Shown one piece after another: positions 290 to 24,912 of a stretch of DNA of 24,976 nt (positions are counted from its first letter, which is position 1; every line of letters starts with the position of its first letter). The DNA lies in IMG/VR virus record IMGVR_UViG_3300040751_002953, positions 1-24,976 of that record. One strand, given 5' to 3'. The position numbers were made by a program, and so were the translations under genes. The notes below the pieces were generated by a model. That model was not told the origin of the DNA and did not search any database. It saw only the letters and a list, made by a program, of their open reading frames with translations. Source of the stretch: a virus.

Positions 290-1558
290 ATGACAGACAC
301 GAAAGAATTAAGTTGCAATTTTTGCGGAAAGTTTCGAGATCAGGTGGATAAACTGGTAGCAGGTCCTGGTGTCTACATCTGTAACGAATGTATTTCCATA
401 TCATATAAAATTATTGATCAGGAAACTTCAGTACCTACTGAATCAAACTTCGATATCCCCAGCCCACAGGAAATTAAAAACAAATTTGACGAGTATATAA
501 CTGGGCACCAGCAAGTAAAAGAAATGCTCAGTGTTAGTGCATACAACCACTATAAAAAAATTAAATTTGCTGACAATGGCATGCCGCTGGATAAGAGTAA
601 TATATTGCTAATAGGGCCTACTGGTACAGGCAAGACTCTGTTTGCTAAAACTCTGGCAAACATGATGCAAGTGCCTTTTGCTATTGCGGATGCAACCACA
701 CTCACAGAAAGTGGTTATGTGGGTGAAGATGTAGACAGTGTGCTGGAAAGACTTCTGAGTGCAAGTGATTACAATCTGGAAATGGCGCAACGTGGTATAA
801 TTTACATAGATGAAATAGACAAAAAGGCCAAACGCAGTGACACTGGCGCTAACACCAGAGATATCAGTGGCGAAGGTGTACAGCAAGCATTGCTCAGATT
901 GATTGAAGGCACAGTAAGTAAAATAAAAATCAGCGCACAAAAATATGGTGACGAGTTTGTGGAATTCGATACCAGTAATGTATTATTCATTGTGGGCGGT
1001 GCTTTTGTGGGAATCGAAAAAACCGTGCAGGAAAGAATTACCCGTAGCTCTAGCATAGGATTTGGTGCGAAAATTTCTTCCAGATCTAAAGATTTTGACA
1101 TCACTGATAAATTGATTTCAGATGATGTGGTAAAGTATGGATTGATACCAGAACTTGTGGGCAGACTACCCATTATTGGTGTACTGGAAAATCTTACTAA
1201 AGAACATCTACTTACCATTTTAATGAATATCAAACACAACGTGATTGATCAGACCAAACAACTACTGGAAATGGACGACATACAAATAAATTTTGGCGAT
1301 GAATACCTGGAAACCTGTGCAGAGTTGGCTATAGAAAAAAAGCTGGGCGCCAGAGCATTAAAAAGCATTGTGGAAGAAAGCATGATTAATTTGATGTTTA
1401 GAGCACCCGAACTCAGAAAAGCAGGTGTGGTTGCCATATGCCTGGATAAATATCCCAACAAGCCAGACAATAAACCCAGATTGGTTTATGAGAACGGCGA
1501 TCAGGAAACTGACACACACTACAGACTCTACAGAGGAGAGAATGAAAAAATATCATAA
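290..1558 (+). CDS. clpX: ATP-dependent Clp protease unfoldase subunit ClpX
   Basis: This AAA+ unfoldase recognises tagged proteins and threads them into ClpP. At 422 aa it is essentially the length of E. coli ClpX (424 aa). Visible parts in order are the zinc-binding domain (C9, C12, C31, C34), Walker A GPTGTGKT (109-116), pore loop GYVG (142-145), Walker B IIYIDE (170-175), the ClpP-docking IGF loop (256-258), an arginine finger in LVGRLP (R292) and the sensor-2 arginine in GARALKS (R355). The substrate-recognising RKH loop of bacterial ClpX is not recognisable: the segment at about 211-225 is shorter and lacks the RKH triplet. The gene lies about 19 kb from clpP in this window. The start ATG follows a weak purine stretch (AGGCGG). 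Its 3' end overlaps the bS21 gene by 17 bases. Confidence 0.97.
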   Translation: MTDTKELSCNFCGKFRDQVDKLVAGPGVYICNECISISYKIIDQETSVPTESNFDIPSPQEIKNKFDEYITGHQQVKEMLSVSAYNHYKKIKFADNGMPLDKSNILLIGPTGTGKTLFAKTLANMMQVPFAIADATTLTESGYVGEDVDSVLERLLSASDYNLEMAQRGIIYIDEIDKKAKRSDTGANTRDISGEGVQQALLRLIEGTVSKIKISAQKYGDEFVEFDTSNVLFIVGGAFVGIEKTVQERITRSSSIGFGAKISSRSKDFDITDKLISDDVVKYGLIPELVGRLPIIGVLENLTKEHLLTILMNIKHNVIDQTKQLLEMDDIQINFGDEYLETCAELAIEKKLGARALKSIVEESMINLMFRAPELRKAGVVAICLDKYPNKPDNKPRLVYENGDQETDTHYRLYRGENEKIS

Positions 1559-2869: not shown

Positions 2870-3031
2870 ATGGGACACCTGGAAGAAGAAGGATTCACAT
2901 ACTGGCAACATTTACAACGTGCATGGACGTTGAGCTTTGTGTGTTTCGTCCATGGATTATTCCCTTTTATATGGAAACACAAAGCAACGGAGATAATTAA
3001 CAGCAAATGGCCTATTCAGAAAAGGTACTAG
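2870..3031 (+). CDS. DUF6356-like mini-protein
   Basis: This 53-residue ORF reads MGHLEEEGFTYWQHLQRAW and then a hydrophobic LSFVCFVHGLFPFIW segment before a basic tail. The layout (HLxEEGxTYWxH, then a hydrophobic stretch with HGLFPF) matches the small family I know as DUF6356, sometimes annotated as capsule biosynthesis protein, which is found in bacteria and marine phages. The hydrophobic stretch could be a membrane-associated helix. Its last 25 bases overlap iscU in another frame. There is no Shine-Dalgarno sequence, and an ATAAATA element lies just upstream. Function is unknown. Confidence 0.7.
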   Translation: MGHLEEEGFTYWQHLQRAWTLSFVCFVHGLFPFIWKHKATEIINSKWPIQKRY

Positions 3032-3387
3032 ATCACTATGAGAATCCCAGGAATGTTGGAAAAATGGACGAAACTCAACCCGATGTTGGCACCGGGATGG
3101 TTGGAGCGCCAGCTTGCGGAGACGTCATGCGACTTCAAATACAAGTCGGAGATGACGGAATTATTAAGGACGCTAAATTCAAAACTTACGGATGCGGCAG
3201 TGCAATTGCTTCTAGCTCACTACTCACAGAATGGGTTCGAGGAAAAACCCTTGACCAAGCAGGAGAAATCCGCAATACACAAATTGCTGAAGAACTGGCA
3301 TTACCGCCAGTAAAAATACATTGCAGTGTGCTAGCAGAAGACGCAATTAAGGCCGCAATCAATGACTACAAGCGTAAGCACTCATGA
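3007..3387 (+). CDS. iscU: Iron-sulfur cluster assembly scaffold protein IscU
   Basis: IscU is the scaffold on which cysteine desulfurase and iron build a [2Fe-2S] cluster before transfer to carriers. All ligands are at the E. coli positions: C37 with D39 in ACGD, C63 in YGCGSA, and H105-C106 in IHCS. The LPPVK motif at 99-103, recognised by the chaperone HscA, is intact, so the protein should be able to engage the host HscA/HscB system. It is 126 aa, close to the 128 aa of E. coli IscU. A possible ribosome site CGGAGA lies 13 bases upstream. The gene overlaps the A-type carrier gene by ATGA, which suggests coupled translation. No cysteine desulfurase gene is present in the window, so sulfur would have to come from the host. 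Confidence 0.95.
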
Positions 3388-3704
3388 TCACAGTTGTACC
3401 AAAAGCCGCACACTGGGTAAAAAGCCAGTTGGAAAGCCGTGGCAGAGGCTTGGGTATTCGCCTGGGTGTGAAAACTGCTGGCTGTTCAGGATTCAAGTAT
3501 GTGTTGGAATTTGTGGACACACCAGAGGAATCAGATCATGTGTTTGAGCAACACGGTGTAAACTTCTATGTGGATCCAAAAAGTCTGTTAGCACTGGACG
3601 GCATGGAAGTGCAGTACAAAATCGAAGGCATTAACGAAGGCCTGGACTTCGTTAACCCAAATGTCACAGGTTCCTGTGGCTGTGGCGAAAGTTTCGCTGT
3701 ATAA
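3384..3704 (+). CDS. A-type Fe-S cluster carrier (IscA/ErpA/SufA family)
   Basis: This 106-residue protein has the A-type carrier layout, with [12 protein letters not shown] containing C34 and the C-terminal GSCGCGESF containing C98 and C100. These are the three conserved cysteines that bind iron or an Fe-S cluster. A-type carriers take clusters from IscU-like scaffolds and pass them to target enzymes. It is translationally coupled to iscU through an ATGA overlap. IscA, ErpA and SufA cannot be separated reliably by eye, so no symbol is given. The gene ends just upstream of a strong promoter. Confidence 0.93.
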
Positions 3705-5698: not shown

Positions 5699-6172
5699 AT
5701 GACAAGCAAACAATTACGTATCACTTCTGATCTTTTAAACTCACCACTATATAAAATGAGCGTCGGCTTTGACAGTCTTTTCAATGACTTCTTTGCAGCC
5801 AATCCTGCGATTGCTAACACTGGCGGATATCCTCCGTACAATGTTGCACGTATCACTGACGCTGACGAAAATGTTTCCTATGAAATCACATTCGCATGTG
5901 CTGGTTTCTCAGAGGATGACATCGAAGTCACAGTTGAAAACAATCAACTGATCGTGAAGGGTAACAGTGGTGTACTTGCTGAAGAAGCAGGAACCACAGT
6001 GGACTTCATCCACAAGGGCATTGCAGAGCGCAACTTTGAGCGCAAATTTAAACTTGCTGACAATGTTGTAGTCAGCGATGCAACCCTGAAAGATGGCATC
6101 CTCAAGGTGAAGTTTAATCAGGTTATTCCTGAAGAGCTGAAGCCAAAGCGTATTGCTATCAACACAAAGTAA
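5699..6172 (+). CDS. Small heat-shock protein, Hsp20/IbpA family
   Basis: This ATP-independent holdase keeps unfolding proteins soluble. The 157-residue protein has a short N-terminal arm, GGYPPYNV at the entry of the alpha-crystallin domain, AGFSEDDIEV, the conserved GIAERNFERKFKLAD strand region, ATLKDGILKV, and a C-terminal IxI motif (IAI, 152-154) used for oligomer assembly. The layout is IbpA-like. A strong ribosome site AAGGAG (5687-5692) lies 6 bases from the ATG. Hsp20 genes are common in marine T4-like phages (established). An intrinsic-terminator-like hairpin follows directly, so the gene may be expressed at a different level from clpS downstream. Confidence 0.95.
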   Translation: MTSKQLRITSDLLNSPLYKMSVGFDSLFNDFFAANPAIANTGGYPPYNVARITDADENVSYEITFACAGFSEDDIEVTVENNQLIVKGNSGVLAEEAGTTVDFIHKGIAERNFERKFKLADNVVVSDATLKDGILKVKFNQVIPEELKPKRIAINTK

Positions 6173-6180
6173 AAAACCCT

Positions 6181-6199
6181 GGGGGCTTCGGCCCCCTTT
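6181..6199 (+). terminator. Intrinsic terminator-like hairpin after hsp20
   Basis: GGGGGC (6181-6186), loop TTCG and GCCCCC (6191-6196) form a perfect 6-base G+C stem with a stable tetraloop, followed by only three T residues and preceded by an A run. The short T tract suggests partial termination. The clpS ribosome site follows immediately. Confidence 0.75.
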
Positions 6200-6209
6200 C
6201 GAGGACAAC

Positions 6210-6506
6210 ATGCCACAGACACAGACAAAAGCAAAAACTCAGGTTCAATTAAAGTATCCTAATCGTTATCGTGTAATTATTTTCAACGACGATACTACTC
6301 CCATGGAGTTCGTTATTCAAATATTGATTGAAATATTTAACAAAGATATTGAATCAGCAACAGAATTAACCATGGAAGTTCATACAAAAGGAAAAGCCAC
6401 TGCTGGAATTTACACAGCAGAAATTGCACATGAAAAAGTAGCAGAGTCACTGAATTGTGTTCTATTGCACGGTTACCAATTGAAATTGTCCGCAGAACCC
6501 ATTTAA
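6210..6506 (+). CDS. clpS: ATP-dependent Clp protease adaptor ClpS
   Basis: ClpS delivers N-degron proteins (Leu, Phe, Trp or Tyr at the N-terminus) to ClpAP in bacteria. From ATG 6210 the protein is 98 aa; longer in-frame readings run back through the terminator and hsp20, so they are rejected. After a disordered Gln/Lys/Thr tail, the core shows YRVIIFNDDTTPMEFV with the N-degron-binding N26, D27, D28 and M32, then LTMEVHTKGKATAGIYTAEIA with H58. These correspond to N34, D35, D36, M40 and H66 of E. coli ClpS. GAGGA serves as the ribosome site directly after the terminator. No ClpA-like unfoldase is seen in the window, so its partner is either host ClpA or viral ClpX. Confidence 0.93.
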   Translation: MPQTQTKAKTQVQLKYPNRYRVIIFNDDTTPMEFVIQILIEIFNKDIESATELTMEVHTKGKATAGIYTAEIAHEKVAESLNCVLLHGYQLKLSAEPI

Positions 6507-16471: not shown

Positions 16472-16695
16472 AGCCAGGCCCCACAGACGCACATTACTCT
16501 GCTTGGCAACAAACATTTGTTTTTTTGCCTAAAACAACACTGAGTAAGGAACGTGTGTGGGGCTGGTGCTGGAGACGCAAGCGAACAATACCCTGGACAC
16601 CGCCACAGTATCCACCTGACGCATGGAATCGTTGGGAGTATGAAACTGAGGCTGGTGTTATCCAGCGAGCACTAGAGGGAAAAGATGCGAATTGA
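16468..16695 (+). CDS. Small Trp-rich hypothetical protein
   Basis: This 75-residue protein has eight tryptophans and several prolines, e.g. [16 protein letters not shown] and [11 protein letters not shown]. It starts in an ATGA overlap with the acidic protein gene and overlaps the GMP reductase start by 11 bases, so it is probably real. No family is recognised. Confidence 0.7.
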
Positions 16696-17809
16696 ACGTG
16701 ATATAAAATTGGACTATTCAGATGTGCTGTTCCGTCCCAAACGTAGCACAATGGGCAGTCGTTCAGAAGTTGATTTGGTAAGACAATACACATTCAGAAA
16801 TGTAAATCCTGACTTCCCTGATAACATTCGCAGAGATGATTTTTCAGGTATTCCCATTATGGCAGCCAACATGGATGGTGTTGGCACTGTGAAAATGGCT
16901 AACGCACTTGCTGAACATGGAATGTTTACCTGTTTGGCAAAAGGCACTCCACTAGAGTTGCTGGGCGGTGTTAAAGACTGGAGACTCACAGCCGTTAGTT
17001 CTGGTATTACTGCTGAGGACAGACAGAGCTTGGATATCAAACTCAGAAAGTATCCTGAAATTCGATTCGTGTGCTTGGATGTGGCAAATGGATATTCAGA
17101 AAGGTTCTTGGACTTCGTAGCAGACTTTCGTGAGCGTTATCCAGAAAAAATTATAATTGCAGGCAATGTGGTTACGCCTGATGTTACAGAGGAGTTAATT
17201 TTACGTGGAGCAGATATTGTCAAAGTGGGCATTGGTCCTGGTAGTGTGTGTACTACTCGCATTAAAACAGGTGTGGGCTATCCTCAGCTCTCAGCAGTCA
17301 TTGAGTGTGCCGACGCTGCTCATGGACTTGGTGGTCATATCATTGCTGATGGGGGCTGTAGTTGCCCTGGAGATGTAGCAAAGGCTTTCGGAGCAGGTGC
17401 AGACTTTGTGATGCTGGGAGGCATGCTTGCAGGAACTGATCAAGGCGGGGGTCAGGTAGTTAATCGTCTGGGCAATCCGCTGAAGGATGCTTACGGAGAA
17501 GTTACTAGTAAGCCTAGCAGTGCAACTGAAAAAGCATATGTACAATTTTATGGCATGAGTTCAAATGCCGCACAGGAGAAGCATGGTGGAAGAAAAGAAT
17601 ACAGAGCAAGCGAAGGAAGAACTGTTCGTATACCGTATAGGGGCGATGTTCACGCCATCGTGGGAGACATTCTGGGTGGTATCCGTAGCACTTGTACTTA
17701 CGTGGGCGCAAAGCGGCTGAAGGATCTCAGCAAGTGCACAACCTTTATACAGGTAAACAACGGCAAGCAACACAACACAGTGTTTGAATCAAACACCACT
17801 GGAGATTAA
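16685..17809 (+). CDS. guaC: GMP reductase (GuaC-type)
   Basis: GMP reductase converts GMP to IMP with NADPH, allowing guanine nucleotides to be rerouted to adenine nucleotides. The 374-residue protein tracks E. coli GuaC (347 aa) along its length: [39 protein letters not shown], then [12 protein letters not shown] with catalytic C189, [18 protein letters not shown], and VMLGGMLAG. It lacks the CBS domains usual in IMP dehydrogenase. Differences from E. coli are loss of the HKHY segment near residue 85 with shortening there, and an insertion at about 255-285. The start ATG overlaps the preceding gene. In this phage it could balance purine pools for A+T-rich DNA (inference). Confidence 0.92.
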
Positions 17810-18238
17810 ATGATAGACGGAGCTAAAACAAAGGATGTGGTAGCATCAGGTATCAATCATGCTGAAAAAGCATTATTGCTTTTCATTGTGTTTGGCACTA
17901 TCTGGGCTGCTGGCATGGATATTATAAAAATGTTCACCAGTCAGGGACAAATGGCATTAGCAGATTTATTCCTGTTGTTCATTTATGCAGAAATACTGGG
18001 CATGGTGGGTGCCTTTTACAAAGACCATCGTATCCCTGTAACACTGCCACTGATCATTGCAATGACTGCGCTAACCAGAATGATTGTGCTACAAACCAAG
18101 GGCACAGATGCTGTTAACATAATCTACGAAAGCCTGGGTATTTTTATACTGGCAATCAGTGCATACGTGATGAGCATGAAAGACATGATCAGCCTCAAAA
18201 AGATTTCACTCAGGAAGGAAGATGACAACAATAATTGA
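17810..18238 (+). CDS. PsiE-family membrane protein
   Basis: This 142-residue membrane protein has four hydrophobic spans at about 21-41, 52-70, 76-95 and 104-124. The pattern FLLFIYAEILGMV, then RIPVTLPLIIAMTALTRMIVL matches the PsiE (phosphate-starvation-inducible E) family. PsiE function is not established. The N-terminus is cytosolic and charged, and the C-terminus basic then acidic. GGAG lies upstream; the start follows the guaC stop directly. It overlaps nadE by 17 bases. Confidence 0.8.
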   Translation: MIDGAKTKDVVASGINHAEKALLLFIVFGTIWAAGMDIIKMFTSQGQMALADLFLLFIYAEILGMVGAFYKDHRIPVTLPLIIAMTALTRMIVLQTKGTDAVNIIYESLGIFILAISAYVMSMKDMISLKKISLRKEDDNNN

Positions 18239-19157
18239 TGAAATAATGCGGTACAACCGTGAACCGGTATTAAGTGAGTTTTTTGAAACCAGACTCAAAG
18301 AGCTTATCTCATACGGACTGTATCCTAATGCTATTCCAGAAATGAGCAGAAAGATATCCAGTTATCTGTTCAAATATAAACACGATAATAACATAGATAC
18401 GGTTGTTATTGGAATGAGTGGCGGTATTGATAGTGCTCTGACTGCGGCATTGTTTAAAGAGGCAGGGTATACTGTTAGAGGATATACAATGCCCATTGAG
18501 CAAAAACCCACAGAAACTGCTCGAGGCATCGAAGCATGTAATGCACTAGGTATTGAACACCAAAACATTGATCTCAGTCTAGCATATCGGGACATGATTG
18601 ATCGTTACACTAACGGTGCGCTGGATGATACACTAGCAGATGATTATATAGAATCAGCAAAACGTAGAGGTAACATTCGTGCTCGTTTGCGAATGATGAC
18701 ACTGTATAACCAGGCCAGTAAGTACAGCGGATTTGTTGCTAGTACAGATAATTTCAGTGAACTGGCGGCAGGCTTCTGGACACTACATGGCGATGTAGGC
18801 GATGTCGCTCCCATACAGAGTTTAACAAAGAGTTGGGAAGTACCTGCCCTGGCAGAATACATGGGCGTACCGGACAGCATCATTGAAGCAGTGCCCACAG
18901 ATGGACTGGGCATCACAGACAAGGATGAGGACCAATTTGGATTCAGTTACTTGCAGTTTGATATCGCACTGTTCAGTCTATTGCAAAACTTTAATAGTGA
19001 TGCAGCCACTGACAGCGACCAGAAAATAATGGGTGCTGTAAGAGATCGTATAAGTAACACAGTATTTAAGCGAACTAATCCTCTGAACTTGCCTCACCCA
19101 TTATACAATGATAGATTAGAGCAACTTCAGGAATTAGACATCAGATTAAGGAGATAA
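18222..19157 (+). CDS. nadE: Ammonia-dependent NAD synthetase
   Basis: NadE performs the last step of NAD synthesis: amidation of nicotinic acid adenine dinucleotide using ATP and ammonia. The 311-residue protein has the ATP pyrophosphatase P-loop SGGIDS (66-71), GNIRARLRMMTLY (150-162), ASTDNFSELAAGFWTLHGD (174-191) and PTDGLGITDKDEDQFG (225-240). There is no N-terminal glutaminase (CN-hydrolase) domain, so free ammonia should be the nitrogen source. The full set of active-site segments suggests an active enzyme. The ATG overlaps the PsiE-like gene. NAD restoration can counter NAD-depleting defences, and NadE would act in that direction only if its precursor is available (inference). Confidence 0.93.
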   Translation: MTTIIDEIMRYNREPVLSEFFETRLKELISYGLYPNAIPEMSRKISSYLFKYKHDNNIDTVVIGMSGGIDSALTAALFKEAGYTVRGYTMPIEQKPTETARGIEACNALGIEHQNIDLSLAYRDMIDRYTNGALDDTLADDYIESAKRRGNIRARLRMMTLYNQASKYSGFVASTDNFSELAAGFWTLHGDVGDVAPIQSLTKSWEVPALAEYMGVPDSIIEAVPTDGLGITDKDEDQFGFSYLQFDIALFSLLQNFNSDAATDSDQKIMGAVRDRISNTVFKRTNPLNLPHPLYNDRLEQLQELDIRLRR

Positions 19158-20791: not shown

Positions 20792-21376
20792 ATGAACTTT
20801 GTACCATATGTAATTGAAAAAACCAGCCAGGGCGAGCGCAGTTATGATATCTACAGCCGCTTGCTCAAAGAACGCATCATCTTTTTAAACGGGGAAGTAC
20901 ACGATGCTGTGAGCAATTCAATTTGTGCACAGATGCTTTTCCTGGAAGCGGAAGATCCTGATGCAGATATTTACTTCTACATCAACTCACCCGGAGGTGT
21001 TGTGACGTCAGGCATGGCAATGTATGACACCATGCAGTATATCCAGCCAGACGTCAGTACCATTGTGATGGGTCAGGCCTGTAGCATGGGCAGTTTGCTA
21101 GCACAAGCAGGTGCTCCAGGCAAGCGCAAAATGCTACCAAATGCCAGACACATGATTCACCAGCCAAGTGGTGGCGCCGGAGGACAAGCAACTGACATCC
21201 AAATTCAAGCAGAAGAAATTCTCAAAATGAAACGTAACCTCACGCAGATCTATGTGGATCACAACAGTGTGGGTAAAACATATGACGAGTTCCATGATGC
21301 CATGGAACGTGACAACTTTATGAGTGCACAAGAGGCACTGGAATTTGGTTTGGTTGATGAAATCATAAACAAGTAA
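20792..21376 (+). CDS. clpP: ATP-dependent Clp protease proteolytic subunit ClpP
   Basis: ClpP is the serine-protease chamber partnered by ClpX or ClpA. The 194-residue protein covers the mature enzyme without an obvious long propeptide. The catalytic triad is visible: S98 in [11 protein letters not shown]123 in [15 protein letters not shown] and a probable D174 in ERDNFMSA. The oxyanion-loop [16 protein letters not shown] and the handle-helix region (about 130-160) are intact. C97 replaces the usual alanine next to the active serine. Intact core residues and the IGF loop in viral ClpX suggest they could work together or assemble mixed complexes with host subunits (inference). It has its own promoter at 20735. 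Confidence 0.96.
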
Positions 21377-22506: not shown

Positions 22507-23229
22507 ATGAAAGCAATTGATTTAACCAAAACTATACCAGTTAACATCATGTTGTTTAACAACAATACTCTGGAATCACTAAATCTGGATCTGAGTTTTA
22601 CGTTAGCAACAACAGCAATCAGTGAATCACAAAAGGACCTGGATCAGGCCAGACTGGATCAGAATGTGAGTTTCACTAAAATAGTGACATTCATAGACTG
22701 TGTGATCAAAGACAGCGTTGTGTATTCCAGACAAGACACAGAACTGGTAGAGCAAATTTTTGGCAGTGTGGAAAATAATTTTATTACACTGGAAGATGTG
22801 AGTGAAATGGTTTTGATTGCAGCTCTACACTGTAAATTTAATAGCTTGATCAGTGAAAACAGCATGGTAAGCACAGTCACAATGAAAGAAAAAATTCAGG
22901 ACATGCAATTTAATTATACTTTTATGGATGAAGGTGAAGGTTATACAGAATTGCCCAGCAAGTCTGAATGGTGCCCTGAACTCAGTTACTGGGACGAACC
23001 CTGGTGGATGAGGGCAGACATAATCACAATAGACAGAATTGCAGAAACCCAGGAAGAATTGGAAAAATGGCGAAGCACTGATATGATAACAGTGGAAGAA
23101 TCCAGCAAAGCATTATTTGACCAGATAGATCAGCAATACAAAGAAATGTTTTCAGAAGATGAGGTCAAGCAAGGCGAGCTGGTTGAAATTGATTTTGATA
23201 AGAAGCCTGGCCTCAGACTAGTTGATTGA
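22507..23229 (+). CDS. Hypothetical acidic protein
   Basis: This 240-residue acidic protein has an N-terminal strand region (TIPVNIMLFNNNTLESL), a central helical part and a SEWCPELSYWDEPWWMRAD segment rich in tryptophan. No family or catalytic motif is recognised. The start follows the previous stop by two bases, downstream of AAAGGA. The stop TGA falls inside the -35 box of the promoter at 23226. Confidence 0.75.
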   Translation: MKAIDLTKTIPVNIMLFNNNTLESLNLDLSFTLATTAISESQKDLDQARLDQNVSFTKIVTFIDCVIKDSVVYSRQDTELVEQIFGSVENNFITLEDVSEMVLIAALHCKFNSLISENSMVSTVTMKEKIQDMQFNYTFMDEGEGYTELPSKSEWCPELSYWDEPWWMRADIITIDRIAETQEELEKWRSTDMITVEESSKALFDQIDQQYKEMFSEDEVKQGELVEIDFDKKPGLRLVD

Positions 23230-23254
23230 CAAAGTGTCTTATATACAGTACAAT
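23226..23254 (+). promoter_or_regulatory. Sigma-70-like promoter (TTGACA-N17-TACAAT)
   Basis: TTGACA (23226-23231) and TACAAT (23249-23254) with a 17-base spacer repeat the pattern at 10269 and 15048. Predicted start is near 23261, only about 4 bases before the ATG at 23265. Confidence 0.85.
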
Positions 23255-23264
23255 ACACAGTAAT

Positions 23265-23735
23265 ATGTCTAATATACAGCACAAAATTGATGAAGCAACT
23301 GGTATAGAAATGCTATACAGGAATAGACCTTTGCGAAATGTTCCTGTGATTGAAAGTGTTGCTGAACAGTATAATCAACACTGTAACGATTTAGACTTGC
23401 TGGAACTGATAACACAAACAGAGAACAACCGTGACTTTTTGATTCCTGAATACTATAAGGAAATGGATGTGGAAGACTATATTAGAGCTCGAGCCCGGAT
23501 GGAAGCTCCAGACATAGCGGCTAGAGTAGAACACGAGCTCACCCTATTCAAAGCCAGGAACCTATATCCTGTGCTACAATTAATGATATATATAGTAGAC
23601 ACCATGCGTAAACACAACATTGTGTGGGGTGTGGGCAGAGGCAGTAGCGTGGCCAGTTATTGTCTTTACTTGATAGGTGTGCACAAAATTGACAGCATCA
23701 AGTACAACTTAGATATTCGCGAATTTTTAAAATAG
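23265..23735 (+). CDS. DnaE-motif protein (fragment-like homologue of DNA polymerase III alpha)
   Basis: This 156-residue protein (ATG 23265) carries near its end GVGRGSSVASYCLYLIGV (122-139) followed by KIDSIKYNLDIREFLK. This closely follows the bacterial DnaE/PolC segment GPGRGSAAGSLVAYxLGIT...DPLxYxLxFERFLN at the start of the polymerase palm. Everything downstream in DnaE, including the catalytic aspartates, is absent, so it is not a polymerase. The in-frame TTG at 23226 is inside the promoter and is rejected. No Shine-Dalgarno precedes the ATG. Similar short proteins occur in marine T4-like phages (recalled). It might bind nucleotide or compete with the host polymerase (inference). Confidence 0.75.
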   Translation: MSNIQHKIDEATGIEMLYRNRPLRNVPVIESVAEQYNQHCNDLDLLELITQTENNRDFLIPEYYKEMDVEDYIRARARMEAPDIAARVEHELTLFKARNLYPVLQLMIYIVDTMRKHNIVWGVGRGSSVASYCLYLIGVHKIDSIKYNLDIREFLK

Positions 23736-24232: not shown

Positions 24233-24578
24233 TGACACCACTATCCAAGTGGGTGATTTGGATTTTGATATTACAGGTATGAACAGTATCATACTGGGTG
24301 ACGACATTTATACCAGTTCCAGTGAGGGCGATATTATGTTAACTGGGTTCGACGATCCCTTGGCCTCAATCGGTAACACATTTACTTGGGACACGTTGTT
24401 GGACAACCCCAGTATCAAAATAGGCAAGCATGAAATCACAGAAGAAACAGCAGAAAAACTTCAGGCTTTGCTGGACATGATTGACAGTTTAGAGAACGAC
24501 AATGATCTCAAAGCATTGTTCAACACACAATTAGCATTTAACAGGATCAAGAACACAGATGAAAATCAGAGCAATTAG
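24222..24578 (+). CDS. Conserved phage-type acidic protein
   Basis: This 118-residue acidic protein contains Ser/Asp-rich strands (DDIYTSSSEGDIMLTGFDD) and a helical end (EITEETAEKLQALLDMID). AAGGA at 24208-24212 favours ATG 24222; the in-frame ATG at 24213 is immediately next to that site. No enzymatic motif is seen. It overlaps its neighbours by 11 and 20 bases, indicating one operon with the genes on both sides. Confidence 0.72.
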   Translation: MESDDTTIQVGDLDFDITGMNSIILGDDIYTSSSEGDIMLTGFDDPLASIGNTFTWDTLLDNPSIKIGKHEITEETAEKLQALLDMIDSLENDNDLKALFNTQLAFNRIKNTDENQSN

Positions 24579-24912
24579 TGACAACATTCTATGCACAGAT
24601 GCAGACTTTGGCGACTATGTGAGTGAAAGTGGCATCGTGGTTAAAAGCAATATGGGTGAAGGATCAGGAATTACGCCCAGATGGTTTAAGATTTGGGAAT
24701 GTGGTCCTGAAGTACACAGAGAAATCAGTAGCCGAGTAGGCTGGTGGGTATTGGTCAGTTATGGGCGTTGGACAGAAGGTGTGGAACTGGAAGATGACCG
24801 ACTGGAAGGCGGCAAAGCCAAGGTGTGGAAAGTAGATCCAGAAGCCTGTTTAGCCCTAGCAGAAACCAAAGAGAATGCATTCAATTACAATTCAGAAGCG
24901 GCCTGGAACTGA
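24559..24912 (+). CDS. GroES-like co-chaperonin (phage gp31-like)
   Basis: This 117-residue protein has MKIRAISDNILCTDADFGDY, then SGIVVKS, a mobile-loop-like SNMGEGSGITPRWFKIW, GPEVHREISSRVGWWVLV and YGRWTEGVELE. This order fits a GroES-type beta-barrel (IRPLxDxVLV...SGIxL...GxVxAVGxG...VxxGDxVLY), and resembles cyanophage proteins annotated as GroES-like. Phage co-chaperonins such as T4 gp31 direct host GroEL to fold capsid protein (established for gp31). Similarity to GroES is remote, so confidence is moderate. Its stop shares TGATG with the next gene. Confidence 0.6.
   Translation: MKIRAISDNILCTDADFGDYVSESGIVVKSNMGEGSGITPRWFKIWECGPEVHREISSRVGWWVLVSYGRWTEGVELEDDRLEGGKAKVWKVDPEACLALAETKENAFNYNSEAAWN

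Follow-up and report, generated by a model that had tools for sequence, protein, structure and literature searches.

The ClpS adaptor encoded by this viral DNA appears to stand without its partner unfoldase ClpA, most likely because the fragment is truncated, to judge from gene order in related records. The window (the whole stretch of DNA analysed, 24,976 bases) is a fragment of an incomplete virus record. It probably comes from a jumbo-type tailed phage with its own ClpAPS and ClpXP set, the clpA gene lying about 7–14 kb past the fragment end. The presence of ClpA in this very phage is most likely, given five collinear relatives that carry it. Neither of the two mechanisms put forward in the initial annotation (ClpS acting on host ClpAP only, or a ClpX that has evolved to use ClpS) would be needed for this phage, because the collinear records carry a full-length ClpA.

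Results

The Clp genes of the window

The three Clp genes of the initial annotation, clpX, clpS and clpP, are real and intact, as judged from profiles, motifs and structure (Table 1). Its statement that no ClpA is seen also holds for the window: ClpA was absent from the ORFs across the 24,976 bases, the largest of which encodes 422 amino acids.

Table 1. Features of the window relevant to the Clp gene set.
Feature	Description	Position	Strand	Evidence
clpX	422-aa ClpX unfoldase	290–1558	+	NCBIfam NF003745 and TIGR00382, motifs
hsp20	Small heat-shock protein directly 5' of clpS	5699–6172	+	PF00011, E 2.7e-16
Shine-Dalgarno-like element	GAGGA plus spacer, 5' of the clpS ATG	6200–6209	+	Sequence
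clpS	98-aa N-degron adaptor	6210–6506	+	PF02617, PDB alignment, residue table, structure match
clpP	194-aa peptidase, cellular type, not a capsid-protease fusion	20792–21376	+	PF00574, NF001368, tree
gp31-like gene	gp31-like head-morphogenesis protein	24559–24912	+	phrog_931, E 1.1e-9, collinearity

The ClpX sequence scored above the cut-off for both NF003745 (E 9.6e-147) and TIGR00382 (E 5.7e-138), and it contains the four zinc cysteines of the C4 domain, the Walker A and B motifs, a GYVG pore loop, an IGF ClpP-docking loop and the sensor GAR motif. Its domain make-up is that of a conventional ClpX: the C4 zinc domain is present and Clp_N is absent.

ClpP has the catalytic triad Ser98/His123/Asp174 and matches PF00574 with an E value of 1.8e-80. 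It passes the NCBIfam models NF001368 (312 bits; cut-off 249) and NF009205 and falls just under the cut-off of the TIGR00493 equivalog (291.6 bits; cut-off 308.6); the ClpP-related head-maturation models scored below their cut-offs. In the ClpP tree, the window clustered in a phage-only clade of 32 rows (support 100/99). ClpP is about 70% identical to its best bacterial relatives, which are mostly from Alphaproteobacteria, and identity reaches 86% in other phages. The phage-only clade and the higher identity to phage sequences suggest that ClpP has long been resident in phages, and a recent capture from a host was rejected on the same grounds. A link of this phage to an alphaproteobacterial host is possible from the ClpP sequences.

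The start of clpS is backed by the Shine-Dalgarno-like GAGGA located four bases 5' of its ATG. The protein matches Pfam ClpS (PF02617) with an E value of 1.1e-24, and its predicted structure (mean pLDDT 86) had the ClpS proteins of E. coli and Caulobacter as top Foldseek matches, with TM scores of 0.84/0.87, an rmsd of 0.8 Å and 45% identity for E. coli ClpS (3o2h). The N-terminal extension has about 16 residues. The residues lining the N-degron pocket were taken from Caulobacter and E. coli ClpS (PMC12493166 and PMC8346999). In the PDB alignment, the contacts to the alpha-amino group (E. coli Asn34, Asp35 and His66) and the gatekeeper Met40 are present as N26, D27, H58 and M32; together with T30, V35 and V57 (Thr38, Val43 and Val65), seven pocket residues are kept. 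The initial annotation had credited this ClpS with all of the pocket residues, which is accurate for these seven but not for the position of E. coli Met62, occupied here by Thr54. Among 37 phage ClpS sequences (window included), this position is Thr in 24, Ala in eight and Met in four. Thr54 may mark a difference in specificity, with membership of the ClpS family retained.

The interface between E. coli ClpS and the ClpA N-domain involves Glu79, Glu82 and Lys84 of ClpS and Glu23, Glu28, Thr81 and Arg86 of ClpA, with a salt bridge between Glu82 and Arg86 (PMC12493166). Two of the three ClpS docking residues are kept in the window, as E71 (Glu79) and K76 (Lys84); Glu79 is found in all 37 phage ClpS sequences and Lys84 in 35. 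The replacement of Glu82 by H74, at the salt-bridge position, was counted against the explanation that we favour.

Other elements of the window were also noted. A GC-rich hairpin (GGGGGC-TTCG-GCCCCC, 6181–6196) lies between hsp20 and clpS; it was rejected as a signal, its fold energy being no better than that of shuffled sequence (z −0.81), and a promoter scan gave background levels only. NifU/IscU-like and IscA-like iron-sulphur assembly genes are located side by side at 3007–3704, the IscU-like protein being 80–82% identical in two relatives. Genes for IMP dehydrogenase/GMP reductase and NAD synthetase lie close together at 16685–19157 and are kept in four other records (G016, G017, G025 and G007).

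ClpA in collinear relatives

Related viral contigs and isolated phages were collected on the basis of ClpS, ClpX or ClpP relatedness. Profiles of ClpS, ClpP, ClpA, the Clp_N domain and the zinc domain of ClpX were run against 50 records. A ClpA-sized match spanning nearly the whole ClpA profile was obtained in 26 of these 50 records.

Five larger records (G011, G017, G025, G026 and G030) are collinear with the window and extend past its end. They have in common the order ClpX, Hsp20-ClpS, ClpP, orf272, orf240, a short DNA polymerase III alpha piece, orf162 and the gp31-like gene, the intervening genes partly varying from one record to another. ClpS was present in all five, and ClpX in all but G017, a contig that begins just before Hsp20 and does not cover ClpX; for G026, only part of the interval was read. 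The gp31-like gene, which is the final complete gene of the window, served as the anchor for the region downstream. In each of the five records, an ORF of 730–734 amino acids encoding ClpA was found 6.8–13.5 kb past this gene (positions approximate, to within a gene length). The initial annotation had made its proposal dependent on there being no viral clpA elsewhere, and on this point the relatives, with a full-length ClpA at that distance, go against it. The DNA polymerase III alpha piece is, in the window, a stand-alone sequence of about 170 amino acids related to that subunit (23226–23735), and it is kept in relatives, adjoining orf162 and the gp31-like gene.

The ClpA proteins of the collinear relatives have two AAA+ domains, a Clp_N domain and a ClpP-docking loop, without a middle domain; likewise, 14 phage ClpA sequences all contained two Walker A motifs and no ClpB middle domain. 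The best NCBIfam model for the phage ClpA was that of ClpA (TIGR02639), not ClpB, with E values of 1e-240 or better in the relatives of the window and bit scores (about 760–900) below the equivalog cut-off of 993. For the G017 protein, E. coli ClpA was the best PDB match; the alignment spans the full length and pairs an IGF motif with the docking IGL of E. coli. Residues Glu23, Glu28, Thr81 and Arg86 are identical in nine of the 14 phage ClpA sequences, including all those from the relatives of the window.

The same arrangement extends through the ClpP clade: ClpA was found about 13–23 kb downstream from ClpP in 16 of the 17 records with at least 18 kb after this gene, some of which are near-copies of one another, so that the independent phages are fewer. 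In the remaining record, G032, the sequence stops about 7.5 kb past the gp31-like gene. The records most similar to the window, G015 (collinear almost throughout) and G016, stop before the place at which ClpA would be expected, and none of the records found overlaps the end of the window itself.

Distribution of ClpS, ClpA and ClpX

Among isolated phages, ClpA was present in all 29 records with ClpS (after exclusion of two misfiled bacterial contigs and a fragment of 4.9 kb), a set that represents a handful of phage lineages only. ClpX was found in at least 14 of the 29 and in at most one more (among the matches listed), about half of these records thus having no ClpX; profile searches found none in Vibrio phage 2.275 and Serratia phage BF. 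ClpS therefore follows ClpA, not ClpX, since the isolates pair it with ClpA, often without ClpX. The clpA-clpS and clpX-clpP records labelled “Acinetobacter phage MD-2021a” (CAKLQF020000008.1 and CAKLQH020000043.1) were rejected as bacterial contigs misfiled as phage, with argC and aroF as neighbours.

In a sister lineage, derived from different samples (G042, 265 kb; G043, 133 kb; and G049), ClpS and ClpP were present (at 156863–157096 and 228980–229522 in G042) and no ClpA was seen; ClpX was not seen either in G042 and G043. Five long, incomplete contigs (G033, G035, G038, G039 and G041) contained ClpX and ClpS, with no ClpA seen. Judging from these two sets of records, ClpS need not be accompanied by a visible viral ClpA, and use of the host ClpA by ClpS is a plausible and natural reading for the sister lineage. 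The sample numbers would place the sister lineage in freshwater, although this is a guess. Compared with the window as possible counterexamples, G042 and G032 both have fewer genes and less order in common with it. In gene content and gene order, the window groups with the ClpA-bearing records, outside the G042 lineage.

Discussion

Alternative explanations

The phage might instead lack ClpA altogether, its ClpS retargeting the host ClpAP and its ClpP perhaps mixing with host subunits. Retargeting of this kind was proposed by Iyer et al. (2021) for other jumbo phages with ClpS (PMC7824862), and the absence of ClpA from the 265 and 133 kb of G042 and G043, together with the retention in ClpS of Glu79 and Lys84, the residues used with cellular ClpA, is consistent with it. 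We nevertheless consider this explanation unlikely for the window, the gene content and order of which match those of the ClpA-bearing records rather than those of G042 or G032, and given that ClpA was encountered in every collinear record reaching far enough (5/5).

An adaptor role for ClpS on a viral ClpX that evolved to accept it would fit the proximity of the two genes, as ClpX is followed by ClpS, on the same strand and within 2–14 kb, in all 26 metagenomic records holding both. This is nevertheless the least probable reading of all: the ClpX is of the conventional type described above, ClpS retains its ClpA-docking residues, about 15 of the 29 isolate records with ClpS have ClpA without ClpX (among the matches listed), and Bacillus phage G and the Lak phages have ClpX with no ClpS match at tblastn sensitivity. 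The tracking of ClpA by ClpS in isolates and the kept docking residues led us to reject a partnership of ClpS with ClpX. Many phages have ClpP-like prohead proteases, and PHROG head-maturation families match the ClpP of the window, which might then be a capsid-maturation protease, with ClpX and ClpS as unrelated acquisitions sharing no common function. That possibility is very slight, as the profile scores mark the protein as a complete ClpP of the cellular type, with the head-maturation models below cut-off, the neighbours of clpP are metabolic genes, and ClpX retains the IGF loop needed for docking on ClpP.

A probable phage-encoded Clp system

According to the explanation that we favour, a phage-encoded set with clpA beyond the fragment end, ClpP would be the peptidase, ClpX one unfoldase, and ClpS the adaptor of a second unfoldase, ClpA. 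The phage ClpS would bind proteins starting with a bulky hydrophobic residue and dock on the N-domain of the phage ClpA, its N-terminal extension threading into the ClpA channel, and the substrate would then be passed to ClpA-ClpP. ClpX-ClpP would work alongside, on other, ClpS-independent substrates. The phage subunits presumably form complexes among themselves rather than with those of the host, and the system may contribute, in the course of infection, to the turnover of proteins of the host or the phage. It is conceivable, if rather doubtful, that the four proteins form a self-contained machine apart from that of the host, in which the altered Met62 pocket leads to the destruction, in infection, of proteins with phage-specific N-terminal residues. 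As for the takeover system for controlled proteolysis suggested in the initial annotation, a phage-encoded set of this kind is supported at the level of the genes, since they recur together and their order is conserved, and “takeover” is an interpretation placed upon them. A phage enzyme generating N-degrons was also considered and rejected, no leucyl/phenylalanyl-tRNA-protein transferase being found in the 50 phage records.

The apparent paradox of an adaptor without its unfoldase gives way to a simpler picture, that of a phage-encoded Clp system, and cautions against reading the absence of a gene from a 25-kb fragment. Jumbo phages of several host groups keep a near-full bacterial Clp system in conserved order, with Hsp20 beside ClpS. 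The recurrence of Thr or Ala at the Met62 position raises the question of a shifted phage N-degron code. In all of the relatives compared, and in Pseudomonas phage PA5oct, Hsp20 immediately precedes ClpS, a thymidine kinase gene intervening in Agrobacterium phage Atu_ph07 and Sinorhizobium phage Phosso, and the pairing may hint at the handling of aggregated proteins.

Comparison with known systems

The E. coli ClpAPS system resembles that of the window in the ClpS fold, the alpha-amino contacts, Glu79/Lys84 and the ClpP triad, and its ClpA N-domain docking residues are found in the ClpA of the relatives; it differs in having Met62 where the window has Thr, and an N-terminal extension of 25 residues rather than about 16. 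Counterparts are also found in phages. Pseudomonas phage PA5oct and its relatives, and Sinorhizobium phage Phosso, have ClpX, Hsp20-ClpS, ClpP and ClpA within a single isolate genome, whereas the ClpP of PA5oct is only 53% identical to that of the window and FtsH is encoded nearby. The RefSeq record of PA5oct (NC_071039.1) labels ClpX and ClpA “porphyrin biosynthesis” and ClpP “head maturation protease”, hiding the Clp set from text searches. ClpX, ClpA, ClpB, ClpP and ClpS have been listed together in the Agrobacterium jumbo phage Atu_ph07 (PMC6102473). Like the set proposed here, that of Atu_ph07 (NC_042013.1) combines ClpX, ClpA, ClpP and ClpS in one phage, with Hsp20 just upstream of ClpS, and its ClpP and ClpX are 72% and 43% identical, respectively, to those of the window. 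Unlike in the window, where ClpA is not directly seen, the set of Atu_ph07 is found within a 490-kb genome, with a thymidine kinase gene between Hsp20 and ClpS, and is accompanied by ClpB and another ClpP-like protein. The Clp set of the window is a further member of the set already reported in giant phages.
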